Assembly: GCA_903882875.1 (NCBI GenBank)
Contig: CAIRYQ010000008.1
Span: forward strand, 1-64,000
Origin: an uncultured Spartobacteria bacterium
GTDB taxonomy: Bacteria; Verrucomicrobiota; Verrucomicrobiia; Chthoniobacterales; Chthoniobacteraceae
Length of the DNA: 64,000 nt
Reading direction: 5' to 3'
The notes under the pieces are model-generated. The model saw only the letters and a list, made by a program, of their open reading frames with translations, ran no database searches and was not told the origin of the DNA. A program made the translations under genes and the position numbers. Within the stretch, counting starts at the first letter, position 1; each line of letters begins with the position of its first letter. Positions 2,164 to 11,532 of this stretch are shown here, one piece after another.

Positions 2164-3498
2164 TCAACCGAGCTTCGCGTGCAACCTGTCGCGGAGAAGT
2201 TCACAGATCGCTTCGTTTGGCAGGCGCTCGGTGACTTCGTTCAGGAAGCCGAAGACCACGAGGCGCTGCGCGGATCGGAGCGGGATGCCGCGGGATAGGA
2301 GGTAGAAGAGCTCCTCGATGTCCACCTGGCCGCTCGTCGCGCCGTGCGTGCAGCGGACGTCATCGGCCTCGATCTCGAGGCCGGGGGCGCTGTTGGCCTC
2401 GGCTTCGTCGGTGAGCAGGAGGTTGCGGACCTTCTGGTAGGCGTCGGTCTTGTGCGCATCGGGCTCCACGCGGATGAGGCCGGTGAAGATGGCGCGGGAC
2501 TGGTCGTTGAGCGAATTCTTGTAGAGGAGGTCGCTGGCGGTGTTCGGAGCCTCGTGGATTTGCAGCGTGCGCTGGTCCACGATCTGCGTGCCTTCGGTGG
2601 CGGAAATGCTGAGCATGTCGCTGCGCCCGCCAGGGCCACGGAGGTGGCTGATGGCTTCGCTGCGGACGTAGCGTCCGCCGAGGTTCAGCACGAGCGCGAG
2701 CGCGGCGGCGTCACGGGCGACGACGGTGTTGTTGATGCGGAAGGCGAGCGACTTCGTGTTGAACTGCTGCACGGCGACGTAGGTGACCTTTGCGCCGTCG
2801 CCGACGATGATGTCATTCGCGCCGACGGAGAGGCCGGGCTCGTCGCATGCGGAGCCGAAGTAATCCACGAGGGTCACCTTGCTGTTCGCCTCGGCGATGA
2901 CGATCGTGTGCGGGAAAATCGCGGAGCCCTCGCCCTGCGACCAGTGGAAGCACTCGACGGGCAGCGCGATTTCCACGCCGCGCGGGACATAGAGGAAGGT
3001 GCCGTTGCGCACCTGCGACTCGTGCAGCGCGGCGAATTTCTGCGAGCCGAGGATCGCGCCCTCGCGCATGAAGTGTTTCTCGATGATTTCGCGCTGCGTG
3101 GCGATGGCCTGCTCGATTGGCAACCACAGCACGCCCTTTGCGCGCAGCGAGTCGCCGTGAAATTCCTGCGCGAGCAAGCGGTCGTTTCCAAAAACCATGC
3201 GGCCCGAGGTCTCGGCCAGTCCGGTCGAGCGGAAAAGCAGCGCGCTGCGCTCAGCCTCGCCAAGCTCCTGTGCGCGGTGGAATGGCGAGAGGTCGAGCGC
3301 CTTCACGTCGGCGAAACGCCACGTCTCGTCGGTGCGCGCGGGCATCGGGAGCTGCGTGAATTTTTCCCACGCGGCCTGCTGGCGCTCGCGGAAATACGTC
3401 GGGTGGCTGTGGAAATCAGGGCCGCTGGTCATCACAAATTTTTCGGTCTTCGCCGCGCTCAACGACGGCGCGGCGGGAGATTCGAGGACGGCGCTCAT
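2164..3498 (-). CDS. sufD: Fe-S cluster assembly protein SufD
   Basis: SufD (444 aa) is the SufB paralogue that completes the SufBC2D scaffold for iron-sulfur cluster assembly in the cytoplasm. The N-terminal part carries the typical PxxxxExWRxxD region (ARTDETWRFADVKAL), and the C-terminal beta-helix includes the family segment RCTHGATSGQVDIEELFY, where SufD has His in place of the SufB Cys region. The start codon shares one base with the sufB stop (TGATG), so translation is probably coupled. It is the last gene of fur-sufC-sufB-sufD; sufS, sufE and sufA are not in the window. Confidence 0.95.
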   Translation of the reverse strand: MSAVLESPAAPSLSAAKTEKFVMTSGPDFHSHPTYFRERQQAAWEKFTQLPMPARTDETWRFADVKALDLSPFHRAQELGEAERSALLFRSTGLAETSGRMVFGNDRLLAQEFHGDSLRAKGVLWLPIEQAIATQREIIEKHFMREGAILGSQKFAALHESQVRNGTFLYVPRGVEIALPVECFHWSQGEGSAIFPHTIVIAEANSKVTLVDYFGSACDEPGLSVGANDIIVGDGAKVTYVAVQQFNTKSLAFRINNTVVARDAAALALVLNLGGRYVRSEAISHLRGPGGRSDMLSISATEGTQIVDQRTLQIHEAPNTASDLLYKNSLNDQSRAIFTGLIRVEPDAHKTDAYQKVRNLLLTDEAEANSAPGLEIEADDVRCTHGATSGQVDIEELFYLLSRGIPLRSAQRLVVFGFLNEVTERLPNEAICELLRDRLHAKLG

Positions 3499-4931
3499 CA
3501 GCCGACGCTCCCTTCCATTTCGAGGTCAATGAGGCGCTTCAGCTCGACGCTGTATTCCATCGGGAACTGGCGGACGAGGTCGTTGACGAAGCCGTTCACC
3601 GAAAGGCTCATCGCCTGCGCCTTCGTGAGGCCGCGCTGCTGCATGTAGAAGATCTGCTCGGCGGAAATCTGCGAGACGCTCGCCTCGTGCTGCGTGGCGT
3701 TGCCGGTGCCGCGCACGTTGATGGCGGGATAGGTGTCGGTGCGGCTGGTCGGGTTGATCAGCAGCGCGTCGCACTCGGTGTTGTTCTTGCAGCCCTTGAG
3801 ATGCTTCGGAATGTGGACGAGGCCGCGGTAGGTGGAACGGCCTTTGCCGAGGCTGATGCTCTTGCTGACGATGTTCGATGTCGTCTCGTCCGCGGCGTGG
3901 ATCATCTTCGCGCCGGTGTCCTGATGCTGGCCGTCGCCGGCGAGCGCGATGGAGATCACTTCGCCGCGCGCCTTGCGGCCCTTCAGCACGACGCCGGGAT
4001 ATTTCATCGTGAGGCGCGAGCCGATGTTGCAGTCAATCCACTTCACCTCGGCCTCCTCGTGCGCGATGGCGCGCTTGGTGACGAGGTTGAAGACGTTTGC
4101 GCTCCAGTTCTGCACCGTGATGTATTGCAGCTTTGCGCCCTTCATCGCGACGAGCTCGACGACTGCGGAGTGCAGTGTCGCCGTCTCGAATTTCGGCGCG
4201 GTGCAGCCCTCCATGTACATCACCTCGGAGCCTTCGTCGGCGATGATGAGCGTACGCTCGAACTGGCCGAAGTTCTCCGCGTTGATGCGGAAATACGCCT
4301 GCAACGGATGCTTCACCTTCACGCCCTTCGGCACGTAGATGAATGAGCCGCCGCTGAACACAGCGGCGTTGAGAGCGCTGAATTTATTGTCGCCCGTGGG
4401 GATCACTTTGCCGAACCACTTGCGGAAAATTTCCGGGTGTTCCTTCAGCCCTTCGGTGCTGCCGACGAAGATCACGCCCTCGTCTCCGAGCGCTTTTTTC
4501 ATGTTGGAGTACACCGCCTCGCTGTCGAACTGCGCCTCGACGCCCGCGAGGAACTTGCGCTCCTGCTCCGGGATGCCGAGCCGCTCGAATGTGCGCTTCT
4601 CGGCGTCCGTGACATCGTCCCACGAGCGCTTCGGCTTTTGGCCGTTCGCGAGGTAGTAGCGGATATTTTGGAAGACAATGTTCTCCAGATCCTTCGACGC
4701 CCAGTGCGTCGGCATCGGCTTGGAAAAGAAAACGTCGAGCGCCTTGTGGCGGAACTCGCGGATCCAATCCGGCTCGCTCTTCACGTCGGAAATATAATCA
4801 ACCGTCGCGTGCGAAAGGCCCGTGCCCGCGTCGAACGCGTGCTGCTCGGGATAGGAAAAATTCCCGGCGGTGCGATCGATGTCGAGTTGCGCGGCCTGGT
4901 CGGTGATGGGTTCGAGTAGTTCGGTGCTCAT
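3498..4931 (-). CDS. sufB: Fe-S cluster assembly protein SufB
   Basis: SufB (477 aa) is the core scaffold subunit of the SufBC2D complex. The sequence is full length and carries the highly conserved blocks [15 protein letters not shown] and [10 protein letters not shown] (with the Cys proposed to accept sulfur), plus the C-terminal [10 protein letters not shown] and [20 protein letters not shown] segments that distinguish SufB from SufD. It lies 21 bp downstream of sufC and overlaps sufD by one base. Co-transcription with the Fur-type regulator upstream suggests control by iron or peroxide, which is an inference from context. Confidence 0.97.
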
Positions 4932-4952
4932 GCTTGCCTCCTTGTTGAAAAA

Positions 4953-5720
4953 TTATGCCGACGCCGCGGCGGCGATGTCGTCCTTGATCCAGTCGTAGCC
5001 CTTCGCCTCGAGTTCGAGCGCGAGTTCCTTGCCGCCGGTGTGCTCGATGCGTCCGCCCACGAGCACATGCACCACGTCGGGCACGATGTAGTCGAGCAAC
5101 CGCTGGTAATGCGTGATGACGAGGAAGCCGCGCTCCGGGCTGCGCATTGCGTTCACCCCGTTCGAGACGATCTTCAGCGCGTCAATGTCGAGGCCGCTGT
5201 CCGTCTCGTCGAGAATGGCATATTTCGGCTCCAGCATGAGCATCTGCAAAATCTCGTTCCGCTTTTTTTCGCCGCCGGAGAAACCCTCGTTCACCGAGCG
5301 CGCGGTGAATTTCCGATCCATCTCCAGCATGTCCATCTTCTCGTAGAGCCGCGCGTAGTAGTCGGTGGCTTCGAGTTCCTCGCCCTCGGGCAGGCGGGCC
5401 TGCAATGCGGCACGGATGAAATTCGCATTCGAGACGCCGGGGATTTCCATCGGGTACTGGAACGCGAGGAAGACGCCGGCGCGCGAACGCTCATCGGGTG
5501 CCATGCCGAGCACGTTCACGCCGTCGAGCAGCACTTCGCCCTCGGTCACTTCGTAGTCGGGATGTCCGCCGAGGACTTTGCTCAGCGTGCTCTTGCCGGA
5601 GCCGTTCGGCCCCATGATCGCGTGGACCTTGCCTTTCTCGATCGTGAGGTTCAGGCCGCGCAGGATTTCAGCGCCGGTCGAGGCGACGCGGGCGTGCAGA
5701 TTTTTGATTTCGAGACTCAT
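4953..5720 (-). CDS. sufC: Fe-S cluster assembly ATPase SufC
   Basis: An ABC-type ATPase (255 aa) that drives conformational change of the SufBD scaffold; it is cytoplasmic and not a transporter. Walker A is GPNGSGKST, the signature is [11 protein letters not shown] and Walker B is [13 protein letters not shown], all in SufC-specific form. The start at 5720 ([12 protein letters not shown]) matches the family N-terminus; the frame extends upstream but only through sequence that overlaps fur. The gene lies 19 bp after the fur stop and is followed by sufB, forming one operon. Confidence 0.97.
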
Positions 5721-5739
5721 TGGTTTGGAAAAATTGAAC

Positions 5740-6225
5740 TCAGTTGCGCTTCGACACTTTCGCCTTGGCCGATGCGTCGGAGGCGCACTTCGGGCATTTG
5801 CCGCGGAAGGCAACTTCGTGATGGGCGATGATCAGGCTCTCGGGAAACTCCCACACATCCTCGGGCCGCTTGCGATTGCGCAGCGGAATGTCGGAAACGC
5901 CGCCGCAGTTCTCGCAAAAAAAGTGCGCGTGCTCCTCGAGATTCGGGCAGTAGCGTGCAGGCCCACGCTCGTCGGCCACCGTTTTTGCGAGTCCGCAGTC
6001 GGTCAGCGTTTCGAGGCAATTATAGACGGTGGCCAGCGAGATCGAGGGAACCCTGTCACGCACGCGGGTGAAAACTTCGACAGCCGTAGGATGGTCGCGT
6101 TTGCCCATCAGCACATCGTAAACGGCGCGGCGCTGATCGGTCATCCGCAGGCCGTGGCCGTGGATTTTTTCATCGGGCGATGGGGAATGGGAGGCTGGCT
6201 TGTTCATCTGCACAGACGAGAACAT
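5740..6225 (-). CDS. Fur-family metalloregulator (Fur/PerR type)
   Basis: A 161-aa Fur-superfamily repressor. A winged helix (about residues 25-90, with [12 protein letters not shown] and [12 protein letters not shown]) is followed by a dimerisation domain with two CxxC structural zinc pairs (Cys104/107 and Cys144/147). Aligned without gaps to Bacillus PerR, the regulatory ligands are His45, Cys93, His99, His101 and Asp112; PerR has Asp and Fur has Glu where this protein has Cys93. It heads the suf operon and probably controls it and itself; a 13-bp palindrome lies 18 bp upstream. ATG 6225 (weak AAGG upstream) and ATG 6207 are both possible starts. Confidence 0.9.
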
Positions 6226-6469: not shown

Positions 6470-6690
6470 GCAACCACAACATACAGTGGTTGCGCGAGCG
6501 AAAGAGTGCCTGTGGCCACGGCCACAGGAGAATAGGGAACCGGGTGTGAATCCCGGACGGTAGCGCCGCTGTAACGAGCGACGAAAGCCCCACACATGCC
6601 ACTGCGACACCGCCGGCCAGCGAGTCGGCGACGCGGTAAGGCGGGGTGAGTAGATGGACCTCGGAGTCAGAAGACCTGCTCTTTCGCCCT
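6470..6690 (+). ncRNA. Cobalamin (adenosylcobalamin) riboswitch aptamer
   Basis: A cis-acting B12 sensor. It opens with a perfect hairpin (GCAACCAC/GTGGTTGC, 6470-6493) and carries the conserved core GGTGTGAATCCCGGACGGT, the CGCCGCTGTAACGAG element, a B12 box with GCCACTGCGACACCG, and the closing AGTCAGAAGACCTGC motif. The order and wording match the cobalamin riboswitch family. It sits about 230 bp upstream of nrdB and is followed by an intrinsic terminator, so B12 binding should end transcription before the operon. The 5' and 3' limits are approximate. Confidence 0.93.
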
Positions 6691-6790
6691 CATCATCGGC
6701 CCCGCATCCTCGGGGTGAAAAACGGTCGCGCCAATGACCGGATGGGATGCTGACAGACTTTTTTCCGCGCATCGCTGCCGATGCGCCCGG

Positions 6791-6842
6791 AGCCTGCGGT
6801 TTTCCTCATCGTGCGAGAGGCGGAATCCGCGGGCTTTTTTTT
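6791..6842 (+). terminator. Intrinsic terminator, likely riboswitch expression platform
   Basis: The arms GCCTGCGG...CCTC and GAGG...CCGCGGGC pair with a bulge, and eight T residues follow (6835-6842). It lies between the cobalamin aptamer and nrdB with no gene end before it, so its role is most likely conditional attenuation of the nrd operon rather than termination of an upstream gene. Confidence 0.75.
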
Positions 6843-6915
6843 GTGCCCCAGCGTCTCTCGGAAAAATCACCGCGCGTGATGGCGCACGCGCCCTTTCCAG
6901 ACCATCCTCGACACC

Positions 6916-8094
6916 ATGAGCACCGACATCCTCGATTCACCCGCCGCGTCCGCCCAGGACGACGCACTCAATTTTTCCGACGGAAATCTCGCCGCGAGCG
7001 AGCAGGGCGATTTCGTCGTCTATAAAATGGGCGCGAAAACCTTCCGGCTCGACAAGGCGAAGGCCCGCGCGCGGCTCGCGGGGAAGCGCGTGATCAACGG
7101 CCAGCGCAGCGCGGAGCTGAACATCCTGCCGCTGAAATACCACGAGGCCTACCGCATCTACAAACAGATGAAGGCGAACCATTGGGAGCCGGACGTGATT
7201 GATATGACGCGCGATTCGCAGCAGTGGAACACGGGTGCGCTCACGGCGAAGGAGCGGTGGATCATCGAGATGGGCGTCGGCTATTTTTCCGCGGCGGAAG
7301 GCATCGTCGGCGACTCCGTGCTGCACGTCATCGAGGACAACCTCACTGCGGCCGAGCTGAAGCACGCGTCGCTGCGGCATATCGCGGAGGAAAGCATCCA
7401 CATGGATTCGCTGCTGCACATCATCGGCTCGCTGAACATTGATCTCGACGAGGTCACCGCGAAGTTCAGCGACATCCCGAGCGTGCGCGCGAAGAACGCG
7501 TTCATCACGCGCCACATGCCGGAGCTGAAGATGGGCATTGATCTCACGATCACGGCGAACAAGCAGAAGTTCGCGAAGGCCATCTTCGCCATCACGCAGG
7601 TCATGGAAGGCACGCAGTTCTACGCGCTCTTTGCGATGGTGCTCTCGCTGCACCGGCAGAACAAAATGACGGGCATCGGCCAGATGTTCCAATACACGCT
7701 GCGCGACGAGAGCAACCACATCGAGCTGGGCCGCTACATCCTCACGCAGCTCATCGCGGAAAATCCCGACGTGTGGACTCCGGAGTTCCGCGCGGAGCTG
7801 GTCGAGTTCATGCGCGAGGGCGTGGAGTTGGAGAAGGAATTTGTCCGCGATTGCCTGCCCGAAGACGGCGTGGGCATGACGCAGGCGGACTTCCTCACCT
7901 ACGTCGAATACAACGCCGACCGCCGCCTCGCCGGCCTCAACCTGCCCGCACTGTCCGGCGTGAAGACGAACCCTTTCGCCTGGCTCGACGAGGTGATTTT
8001 CCTGCGCAAGGAGAAGAACTTCTTCGAGACGCGCGTCACCGAATACCAGACGAGCGGCAGCGTGAAGAACACCGCCGAGGACGACCTGATCTGA
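6916..8094 (+). CDS. nrdB: Ribonucleotide reductase small subunit, class Ic-like (no radical Tyr)
   Basis: The R2 subunit (392 aa), which generates the oxidant that starts ribonucleotide reduction in NrdA. Against E. coli R2 the metal ligands align with constant spacing: Glu128 (for Asp84), Glu159, His162, Glu231, Glu265 and His268. Trp90 of the radical path (Trp48) is kept and a Tyr sits near the C-terminus. The radical tyrosine position (Tyr122) is Leu166. Glu at the first ligand and no Tyr are features of the chlamydial class Ic enzyme, which uses a Mn/Fe cofactor and has Phe at this site. First gene of nrdB-dcd-nrdA under the cobalamin riboswitch; its stop overlaps the dcd start. Confidence 0.95.
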
Positions 8095-8663
8095 TGGGTG
8101 TCCACGCCGACAAATGGATTCGCCGCATGGCGAAGGAGCGCGGGATGATCGAGCCGTTCGAGGACGGGCTCGTGCGCAGGAACGCCGCGGGCGCATCGGT
8201 CATCAGCTACGGACTGTCGAGCTACGGCTACGACCTGCGGGTGGCCGATGAGTTCAAGGTCTTCACGAATGTGTATAGCGCCGTCGTGGACCCGAAGGCG
8301 TTCGATGAAAAGTCATTCGTGGACATGCGCGGCGAGAGCTGCCTCGTGCCGCCGAACTCCTTCGCGCTCGCGCGCAGCGTCGAATACTTCCGCATCCCGC
8401 GCGACGTGCTCACGCTCTGCGTCGGCAAGAGCACCTACGCGCGCTGCGGCATCATCGTGAATGTCACGCCCTTCGAGCCGGAATGGGAGGGCCACGTGAC
8501 GCTGGAAATTTCCAACACCACTCCGCTGCCCGCGCGCATCTACGCGGGCGAAGGTCTCGCGCAGGTGATCTTCCTCGCCGCCGCCGAGCCGTGCGAAACG
8601 AGCTACGCCGACCGCGGCGGCAAATACCAGGCCCAGCGCGGCATCACCGTTCCGCGCATTTGA
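8094..8663 (+). CDS. dcd: dCTP deaminase
   Basis: Converts dCTP to dUTP in the dTTP-supplying pathway (189 aa, normal for the family). The active-site motif [10 protein letters not shown] and the catalytic Glu in [10 protein letters not shown] are present, as is the C-terminal [11 protein letters not shown] that closes over nucleotide in the trimer. The start ATG overlaps the nrdB stop (TGATG); the frame is open further upstream but only inside nrdB. Its place between the two ribonucleotide reductase genes links deoxynucleotide production with dUTP/dTTP supply under one B12-controlled transcript. Confidence 0.95.
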
Positions 8664-8688: not shown

Positions 8689-11532
8689 ATGAACACGACC
8701 ACCGCTCCATTCACCCTCCGCAACGATCTGCCCGCCAGCGGCACGGCGGAGTTTCCGCAAGTCATCCGACGCGACCTGCCTGGCGACGCATCAGGCAAGC
8801 CGCGCGTCGTCCCGTGGCTCGGGCACAAGATCGCGAAGGCGGTGGCGGCGGCGTGCTTCGTCGAGGGGCAGGATGAAAGCATCGGGCTGCAAGTGCAGGC
8901 GGAGATTGAATACCGGATGCGCCGCGAGCGGCCGAGCTTCGTCCACATCGAGCAGTTGCAGGATCTCGTGGAGGAGACGCTGATCGAGATCGGCCATCCC
9001 CGCGTGGCGCTCACCTACGGAAAATACCGGGCGAAGCGCGCGGCGGAGCGGGCGCTCGGCACGATCGTGCCGGACGACACGGAGACGCAGATGGAACTGG
9101 CGACACGCGACCAGCTCGGCGACATCCGCGCTCGCATCTCGTTCGCCAAAATCGGCCTCTCGCTCGCGCTCACCGACGACGAACTGCTCGTGCGCCTGCT
9201 GCGCAGCACGTCCATCAATCTCACGCCGCAGGAACGCCGCGAGACCATCGTGCTCAATGCGAAGTCGCTCCTCGATCTCGATGCCGATGCGCGCTTCTTC
9301 GCCGCACGCATCCTGCTCAGCTACATCTACGAGGAGACACTGCCGTGGACGGTCACCGACGGCCCGCAGGCGCTGAAGGAAGCGCATCGCCGCGCATTCA
9401 TCGCGTACATCCCGCAGGGCATCGCGCTGCGCCGGCTCGATCCGCGGCTCGCGGAATTCGATCTGCCAAAGCTCGCGACCACGCTCGATCCGTTCGCGGA
9501 TTTGCAGTTCGACTTCATCGGCATCCAGACGCTCTTCGACCGCTACCTCATCCACGACACGGACACGGTCACAGGCCGCAAGCGCCGGCTCGAAGCGCCG
9601 CAGATTTTCTGGCTCCGCGTGGCGATGGGGCTCTCGATTTTGGAAAAGGATCGTGAGGTGCGGGCCGCGGAATTTTACGCCATCTACAAGTCGCGCCGCG
9701 CGTGTTCGTCCACACCCACGCTCTTTAATTCTGGCACGCTGCACTCGCAGCTTTCCTCGTGCTACCTGCTCTACTGCGGCGACAGCATCGAGGAAATCAC
9801 CGAGACGTGGCGGCGCTTTTCGCATCTCTCGAAATGGGCGGGCGGCCTCGGCTGCTCGTGGACGGCCATCCGCGGCGCGGGCGCGCACATTCACGGCACG
9901 AATGGCGAAAGCTCGGGCGTCATTCCTTTCCTGAAAGTCTCCAACGACATCGCGATCGCCGTGAACCAGGGCGGCAAGCGTCCCGGCGCACTGTGCTCGT
10001 ATCTCGAACTGTGGCACGCGGACATCGAGGACTTCCTCGACCTGCGCAAGGAGACTGGCGACGACCGCCGCCGCACGCACAACATGAACACCGCGCATTG
10101 GATTCCCGATGTGTTCATGAAGCGGCTCAAGGCCATTTCCGAGGGCGCGCTGCCGAAGGACGCGACGTGGACGCTGCTGCGCACGAGCGACTGCCGCGAC
10201 CTGCCCGAGCTGTACGGCCGCGCCTTCGAGCTGCGCTACGAGGAATACGAGCGCATGGTGGACGAGGGCAAACTGTGGGGCCGCAAAGTGCGCGTGCTCC
10301 AGCTCTGGAAGCGGATGCTCGAGATGCTCTTCGAGACCGGCCACCCGTGGATGACGTGGAAGGATCCCGCGAACGTCCGCAACCCGCAGGACCACGCGGG
10401 CGTGATTCACAACTCGAACCTCTGCACCGAAATCGAACTGAACACTTCGAGCGACGAGGTCGCCGTCTGCAATCTCGCCAGTGTGAACATCGCCGCACAC
10501 CTGTGCCCGGACGGTTCGCTCGATCACGACAAGCTCCACGAGACGATCACCGTTCTCATGCGGATGCTCGACAACGTGATCGACATCAACTTCTACCCCG
10601 TCGAAGCCGCCGCGAATTCCAACCTCAAGCACCGCCCCGTGGGCCTCGGCGTCATCGGCCTGCAGGATGCGCTCTACGACAAGAAGGTCGCGTTCGATTC
10701 GCCCGAGGCCGTGGACTTCAACGACGAGGCGCTCGAAGCCATCGCCTACCACGCCTACACCGCGAGCAGCGACCTCGCCGCCGAGCGCGGCGCGTATCCG
10801 AGCTACGAGGGCTCGAAGTGGAGCCGCGGCATGATGCCGCTCGACACGCTCGATCTCTTGGAAAAGGAGCGCGGCACGCCGATCCTCGTGGATCGCAAAT
10901 CACGCCTCGACTGGTCCGCGCTCCGCACGCGCATCGCGAAGCAGGGCATGCGCAATTCCAACTGCCTCGCCATCGCGCCGACCGCGACCATTTCCAACAT
11001 CCTCGGCTGCACGCCGTGCATCGAGCCGACGTACAAGCACATTCACACGAAGTCCAACCTCAGCGGTGAATTCATCCGCACGAACGACCACCTGCTGCGC
11101 GACCTGCAGGCGCGCGGCCTGTGGGACGAGGAGATGCTGGCCGACCTCAAGTATTTCGACGGCTCCGTGCAGGGCATCGAGCGCGTGCCCGCCGAACTCA
11201 AGCGGCTCTACAAAACCGCGTTCGAGATCGCACCGACGTGGATTTTGCAATGCGCCGCCGTCCGGCAAAAGTGGATCGACCAGGCGCAGAGCACGAACCT
11301 CTGGCTCGCCGAAAGCGACGCGCGCACCGCGAGCTTCATGTATCGCGAAGCGTGGGAGCGCGGCCTCAAGACGACCTACTACCTCCGCACGCTGAACAAG
11401 AGCGCCATTGATTCCGCGAACCGCGACCGCCGCCCCGCCGCCGAAGCAAAGCGCGAATTTTCCGCCGAGGAAAAAAGCGCATGCTCCATCGAATCCATGC
11501 GCAACGGCGGCACCTGCGAAGCCTGCCAGTAG
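8689..11532 (+). CDS. nrdA: Ribonucleotide reductase large subunit, class I
   Basis: The catalytic R1 subunit (947 aa), reducing ribonucleoside diphosphates. An N-terminal ATP-cone (about residues 30-120) should provide overall activity control by ATP/dATP. The redox Cys in SQLSSCYLLYC, the thiyl-site block NSNLCTEIELN, the partner Cys in VAVCNLASVN, the radical-relay tyrosine pair in KTTYYLRTLN, and a C-terminal CEAC swinging arm are all visible. It is longer than E. coli NrdA (761 aa), with the extra length before the catalytic barrel. It lies 25 bp after dcd and ends the riboswitch-controlled operon. Confidence 0.96.
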   Translation: MNTTTAPFTLRNDLPASGTAEFPQVIRRDLPGDASGKPRVVPWLGHKIAKAVAAACFVEGQDESIGLQVQAEIEYRMRRERPSFVHIEQLQDLVEETLIEIGHPRVALTYGKYRAKRAAERALGTIVPDDTETQMELATRDQLGDIRARISFAKIGLSLALTDDELLVRLLRSTSINLTPQERRETIVLNAKSLLDLDADARFFAARILLSYIYEETLPWTVTDGPQALKEAHRRAFIAYIPQGIALRRLDPRLAEFDLPKLATTLDPFADLQFDFIGIQTLFDRYLIHDTDTVTGRKRRLEAPQIFWLRVAMGLSILEKDREVRAAEFYAIYKSRRACSSTPTLFNSGTLHSQLSSCYLLYCGDSIEEITETWRRFSHLSKWAGGLGCSWTAIRGAGAHIHGTNGESSGVIPFLKVSNDIAIAVNQGGKRPGALCSYLELWHADIEDFLDLRKETGDDRRRTHNMNTAHWIPDVFMKRLKAISEGALPKDATWTLLRTSDCRDLPELYGRAFELRYEEYERMVDEGKLWGRKVRVLQLWKRMLEMLFETGHPWMTWKDPANVRNPQDHAGVIHNSNLCTEIELNTSSDEVAVCNLASVNIAAHLCPDGSLDHDKLHETITVLMRMLDNVIDINFYPVEAAANSNLKHRPVGLGVIGLQDALYDKKVAFDSPEAVDFNDEALEAIAYHAYTASSDLAAERGAYPSYEGSKWSRGMMPLDTLDLLEKERGTPILVDRKSRLDWSALRTRIAKQGMRNSNCLAIAPTATISNILGCTPCIEPTYKHIHTKSNLSGEFIRTNDHLLRDLQARGLWDEEMLADLKYFDGSVQGIERVPAELKRLYKTAFEIAPTWILQCAAVRQKWIDQAQSTNLWLAESDARTASFMYREAWERGLKTTYYLRTLNKSAIDSANRDRRPAAEAKREFSAEEKSACSIESMRNGGTCEACQ

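Follow-up and report, generated by a model that had tools for sequence, protein, structure and literature searches.

The window, which is the whole stretch of 64,000 nucleotides that was analysed, carries the gene cluster nrdB-dcd-nrdA on its plus strand. The nrdB gene (6916..8094) encodes a class I R2 subunit of 392 amino acids, with a leucine at the radical site. It matches PF00268 with an E-value of 8.9e-64, and only narrowly passes the NCBIfam family model PRK07209 (316 bits, with a cut-off of 309). Its stop codon overlaps the start of dcd (8094..8663), the gene for dCTP deaminase (TIGR02274, 166.8 bits versus a cut-off of 92.8), which adds a pyrimidine-deoxynucleotide step between nrdB and nrdA. 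The class I catalytic subunit is encoded by nrdA (8689..11532). It has 947 amino acids and scores 604 bits on PF02867 and 1098 bits on PRK07207, where the cut-off is 965. There is one ATP-cone, at residues 39-118. C358/C594, C579, the Y897-Y898 dyad and C943/C946 are all found in the expected class I motifs. This answers a question raised by an earlier, sequence-only reading of the locus, which was if NrdA is fit for class I radical transfer: the residues for it are present.

The leader of nrdB contains a full-length cobalamin (B12) riboswitch aptamer, RF00174, at 6487..6697 on the plus strand (98.2 bits, with an Rfam gathering threshold of 31.5). It ends 218 bases upstream of the nrdB start codon, on the same strand. 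At 6789..6843 (+) there is a G+C-rich hairpin followed by T8, which is likely the intrinsic terminator of this riboswitch; folding of 6785-6845 gives -26.5 kcal/mol. A simple terminator scan, which considers only short loops and perfect stems, does not report this hairpin. Cobalamin riboswitches are also found upstream of the Leu-type nrdB of six relatives (loci L107, L108, L136, L003, L089 and L190). Many other relatives have none upstream of nrdB, including the same-genus loci L103, L105 and L109.

Another contig of the same genome encodes a B12-dependent NrdJ (PRK06556, 1306 bits). In Streptomyces, B12 is known to repress the class I nrd genes, so that NrdJ takes over. Given this precedent, the riboswitch and the NrdJ, the same logic probably applies here: with B12 at hand the cell would use NrdJ, and without it the enzyme that depends on oxygen and metals. 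Plentiful B12 would then probably turn nrdB-dcd-nrdA off through the riboswitch, and the cluster is probably a B12-independent alternative to NrdJ.

Divergent from nrdB, the minus strand has a gene for a Fur/PerR-family regulator (5740-6225), for which every named PerR or Fur model gives a weak score. It is followed by sufC-sufB-sufD (2164-5813, also on the minus strand and divergent from nrdB).

The R2 site and its conservation

Class I R2 proteins are marked by a ferritin-like dimetal site with six ligands, and by a relay with a tryptophan and a C-terminal tyrosine. NrdB has both. On the plus strand, W90 (7183..7185) is the radical-relay tryptophan, W48 in E. coli and W51 in C. trachomatis. 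E128 (7297..7299) is the first metal ligand, which is an Asp in classes Ia and Ib. Positions 7384-7413 translate as A157-E-E-S-I-H-M-D-S-L166. This piece contains ligands 2 and 3, in E159-S-I-H162 (7390..7401), and ends in the CTG codon (7411..7413) of L166, at the position of the radical tyrosine (Tyr122 in E. coli, Phe127 in C. trachomatis). The second half of the site has the fourth ligand, E231 (7606..7608), and D264-E265-x-x-H268 (7705..7719), which holds the relay Asp and ligands 5 and 6. One turn past E231 lies the clade-specific Q234 (7615..7617). Y260, which corresponds to the activation relay residue Y222 of C. trachomatis, is followed directly by T261 (7693..7698). The C-terminal relay tyrosine is Y377 (8044..8046; Y356 in E. 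coli, Y338 in C. trachomatis), and the protein also has an acidic C-terminal tail.

The ligands are spaced as in known R2s: 31 residues from E128 to E159, 3 from E159 to H162, 4 from H162 to the radical site, 34 from E231 to E265 and 3 from E265 to H268. The sequence-only reading had claimed constant spacing relative to E. coli R2. This is true within each half, but not between the halves: E159 and E231 are 72 residues apart, much like the 73 of C. trachomatis, versus 89 in E. coli, which we take from the known E. coli numbering. Its other claims on the site stand. All six ligands are there, the first being Glu, and the leucine is indeed at the Tyr122 position, as NrdB can be aligned without gaps to the solved C. 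trachomatis R2c from the first Glu to the radical site. The relay Trp and the C-terminal Tyr are kept as well.

NrdB has a longer N-terminal extension than C. trachomatis R2. This extension (6991-7083, residues 26-56) is predicted to form short beta strands and a helix, with low model confidence. The one AlphaFold model made of NrdB is of moderate quality, with a pLDDT of 73.

The residues were also read in an alignment of distinct sequences from the clade to which NrdB belongs. The first ligand is Glu and the radical site is Leu in 119 of 119 sequences. Leu166 is therefore neither chance nor sequencing error. The sister groups have Phe at the radical site in 67/67 Glu/Phe relatives, and Tyr in 29/29 Asp/Tyr relatives. 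Ligands 2 to 6 and D264 are invariant in the clade, and so is W90 (119/119); Y260 is found in 118/118 and Y377 in 117/117. Position 261 is Thr in 118 of 118 clade members, versus Ile in all 67 Glu/Phe and all 29 Asp/Tyr relatives. Similarly, residue 234 is Gln in 119/119, where nearly all relatives of both other types have Phe. T233 is invariant in the Leu clade and L238 nearly so (116/119).

Distribution and probable function of the Leu type

Within the phylum of the window, the Verrucomicrobiota, 84 genomes from an even sample of 388 contain an intact Leu-type R2 (at least 50% identity); an R2 that matches the window protein is present in 125 of the 388. One genome, G380, has a split Leu-type nrdB: its two pieces overlap and lie on a single contig (L170, C32:10628-11589), with around 30 residues missing between them. 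This could be a real break or an assembly error, and the genome is left out of the 84.

Outside this phylum the clade is rare. Among sampled genomes around a planctomycete, the Leu type is found in 3 out of 294; around a chlamydia this is 1 out of 116, and around a Chlorobiota record 2 out of 296. A search around a Halomonas, run without a positive control, delivered none in 349 sampled genomes. Exact short-peptide scanning of contigs missed clade members at 50-57% identity, which the phylum search recovered. No viral relative was found in one scan of IMG/VR with short exact patterns, which is a weak test. The presence of Leu-type R2s in planctomycete- and Chlorobiota-side genomes suggests horizontal transfer.

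Some individual genomes deserve a mention. The Leu-type R2s at L179, L180, L181, L190 and L191, in a few planctomycete- and Chlorobiota-side genomes, are 71-72% identical to that of L139, on the main branch. The R2s of L003, L004 and L005 are 74-83% identical to the one in the window, and come from metagenome-assembled genomes whose titles, 'Akkermansia muciniphila' (one of 4.6 Mb) and 'Chlamydiae bacterium', seem doubtful. One genome, G395 (L169, L248), encodes, besides its Leu-type R2, two distant R2s of the Asp/Tyr type, which resemble eukaryotic R2 motifs.

Two single-contig genomes of 0.9 Mb, both 99% complete (G041 and G050), have one R2 each, and it is of the Leu type. Each also has one PF02867 protein, with an NrdA-like score, and no NrdD was found in either. 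Since this is the sole ribonucleotide reductase (RNR) detected there, the Leu-type enzyme should supply the DNA precursors of these organisms, barring import of deoxynucleosides. From such genome content we infer that the Leu-type R2 should be functional. Judging from their size and relationship, both genomes may be from nematode symbionts of the Xiphinematobacter kind.

In three genomes, a second R2 copy sits in tandem with the Leu-type nrdB (L165:3456-4532; L166:2893-3993 on the minus strand; L167:1802-3016). Two of these copies have all metal ligands but an Asn in place of the relay Tyr. In the third, ligands are replaced by Gln, Arg, Val and Arg, and the C-terminal Tyr is gone as well. This copy recalls Rnr4 of yeast, a metal-free partner subunit.

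The probable oxidant and its metals

Since leucine is unable to carry a radical, either the metals or some other residue must hold the oxidising equivalent. Among solved structures, NrdB is closest to the class Ic R2c of C. trachomatis (PDB 4d8f/4m1i/1syy), with 248 bits by sequence and rank 1 by predicted fold. C. trachomatis R2s carry Mn(IV)/Fe(III). Mn/Fe is favoured here because these are the nearest characterised R2s by both measures, and because ligation with only Glu carboxylates is typical of Mn/Fe; it is common to the Mn/Fe R2s (PMC4118035). On the sequence and the predicted fold, we consider it fairly probable that NrdB belongs to a working class I enzyme that stores its oxidant on the two-metal site, most likely as Mn(IV)/Fe(III).

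Such an enzyme would bind reduced metals with E128/E159/H162 and E231/E265/H268, after which O2 or a reduced oxygen species would bring them to a high-valent state. As in C. trachomatis, W90/Y260 would probably deliver the extra electron. The hole would then travel over W90, D264, Y377 and Y897/Y898 of NrdA to C579, where ribonucleotide reduction would begin. The sequence-only reading held that the radical must be on the metal cofactor. This remains the best explanation, given the lack of an oxidisable residue at the radical site, the class I-competent NrdA next to it and the strong genetic grounds for a working enzyme. The conserved Y123 and Y260 could in principle be radical carriers, which counts against storage on the metals.

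Both metals might also be manganese. The cofactor would then be Mn2(IV,III), made from superoxide or peroxide, with the oxidant still on the metals, and the class Id solution would have been reached from a different R2 branch. This is a serious rival because T261, Q234, T233 and L238 remodel the pocket relative to class Ic, and because T261 matches class Id: in the L. blandensis protein, Thr294 also stands four residues before the fifth ligand, Glu298 (PMC6754362). In class Id this Thr191/Thr294 keeps the metals and the Tyr apart (PMC8463856, PMC6754362). The first ligand is Glu in both as well. The likeness does not extend much further, however. NrdB has no such Tyr, and at E1+4 and E1+7, where class Id has Lys and Trp respectively (PMC6754362), the Leu clade has Gly (G132, 119/119) and Ile or Val (residue 135). 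Class Id NrdAs come without an ATP-cone (PMC8463856), which the NrdA described here does have. By sequence, NrdB is far closer to class Ic, as the class Id R2 match is 61 bits versus the 248 for C. trachomatis R2c. All in all, a Mn2 cofactor appears unlikely.

An Fe2 cofactor, or a radical on Y123, Y260 or W90, strikes us as quite improbable. Y260 and W90 are conserved, and at position 123 all 119 Leu-clade sequences have Tyr, where all 67 of the Phe group have Phe. Class Ic also has the equivalent of Y260, though, and uses it as a relay, not as a store. E. coli R2 has a Tyr at the position of Y123 that carries no radical, which counts against a radical there. There is very little chance that NrdB is no RNR subunit at all, but an oxidase of the R2lox kind. 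R2lox sites are also all-Glu, with the radical Tyr missing (PMC4118035, PMC3824934). The best R2lox model reaches 51 bits here, below its cut-off of 194, compared to 316 for the R2 model. In addition, the C-terminal Tyr and acidic tail are kept, the gene is clustered with nrdA and dcd, and some genomes that require an R2 have no other than the Leu type. On model score and gene context, an R2lox identity is rejected. Almost no credence goes to a degenerate or mis-sequenced class Ia gene: duplicated neighbour copies are degenerate in a few relatives, but the Leu and the ligands are fixed in 119 distinct sequences, which rules out a sequencing error or pseudogene.

Placement among known R2 proteins

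In a tree of 49 proteins, of which the bootstraps are not fully settled, the Leu clade has 100/100 support and a long stem of 2.9 changes per site. The proteins with Phe split over two further clades, and C. trachomatis belongs to one of these (95/91). A common origin for every Tyr-less protein, Leu or Phe, gets 28/100, which neither establishes nor rejects it. The trees give no support for nesting the Leu clade within the Chlamydia Phe clade. Judged by these trees and residues, the Leu clade is separate from the Chlamydia-type Phe clade, and not class Ic with a swapped residue.

Existing classes do not quite fit. Classes Ia and Ib pair Asp with Tyr, and here the pair is Glu/Leu. Class Id is rejected on the Tyr, the Lys, the Trp and the NrdA without ATP-cone, none of which are found. 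Of the class Ic marks, the Glu first ligand and the Y222-type relay Tyr are present. The strict mark of class Ic is Phe/Glu, which the uniform Leu departs from; a broad definition, 'no Tyr', would include NrdB. The earlier label 'class Ic-like' therefore holds as far as the nearest solved relatives go, but not for the fully supported clade of its own, nor for its other invariant pocket differences, including Thr261. On the best reading, NrdB would work like class Ic, yet it is not filed as a member. As a tentative suggestion, the Leu/Glu pairing may mark one more biochemical subclass among the class I RNRs, fixed across much of the Verrucomicrobiota, that is neither Ic nor Id and has a cofactor or assembly route of its own.

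The clade combines an aliphatic radical-site residue, a class Id-type Thr and a largely class Ic-like remainder. This makes it a natural, strictly conserved test case for the features that decide between Fe2, Mn2 and Mn/Fe, and between a residue and the metals as the seat of the oxidant. With this clade, tyrosine-free R2s also reach well beyond pathogens, and in some reduced genomes no RNR other than the Leu type was detected. Loss of the Tyr has been proposed as a defence against host nitric oxide (PMC4390871); this range would weaken that idea as the main cause.

Tyr-less R2c proteins with Leu, Ile or Val were noted earlier in sequence surveys (Hogbom 2010, cited in PMC3824934). A literature search, mostly without subscription papers, found no description of the Leu clade, of the Thr261 signature or of a purified or biochemically studied Leu-type R2. 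Leu in Tyr-less R2s is in itself known; what appears to be new is this clade, with its own invariant pocket residues.

The Asp/Tyr R2s of Pseudomonadota (PRK07209 type) are in the same wider group, at 36-41% identity, but unlike NrdB they have an Asp first ligand and a Tyr radical site. The ferritin-like subunits of class O (PMC9531940) carry either Phe or Leu where the radical residue would be, the latter as in the Leu clade. They differ from NrdB in their length of around 240 amino acids, short C-terminus and poor similarity to class I R2s. Class Id R2s (NrdBi, from Flavobacterium johnsoniae and Leeuwenhoekiella blandensis) share the Glu first ligand and the Thr that precedes the fifth ligand by four residues, and their metal-stored oxidant is what NrdB would have too. 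Conversely, they keep the Tyr, have the Lys and Trp, work with an NrdA without ATP-cone and are far more distant. C. trachomatis R2c is around 40% identical to NrdB, from a separate clade. Common to both are the all-Glu carboxylates, a non-oxidisable radical-site residue, the W, the Y222-type Tyr and the C-terminal Tyr. NrdB differs from it by having Leu and not Phe, T261 and not Ile, and by Q234, T233, L238 and the acidic C-terminal tail.
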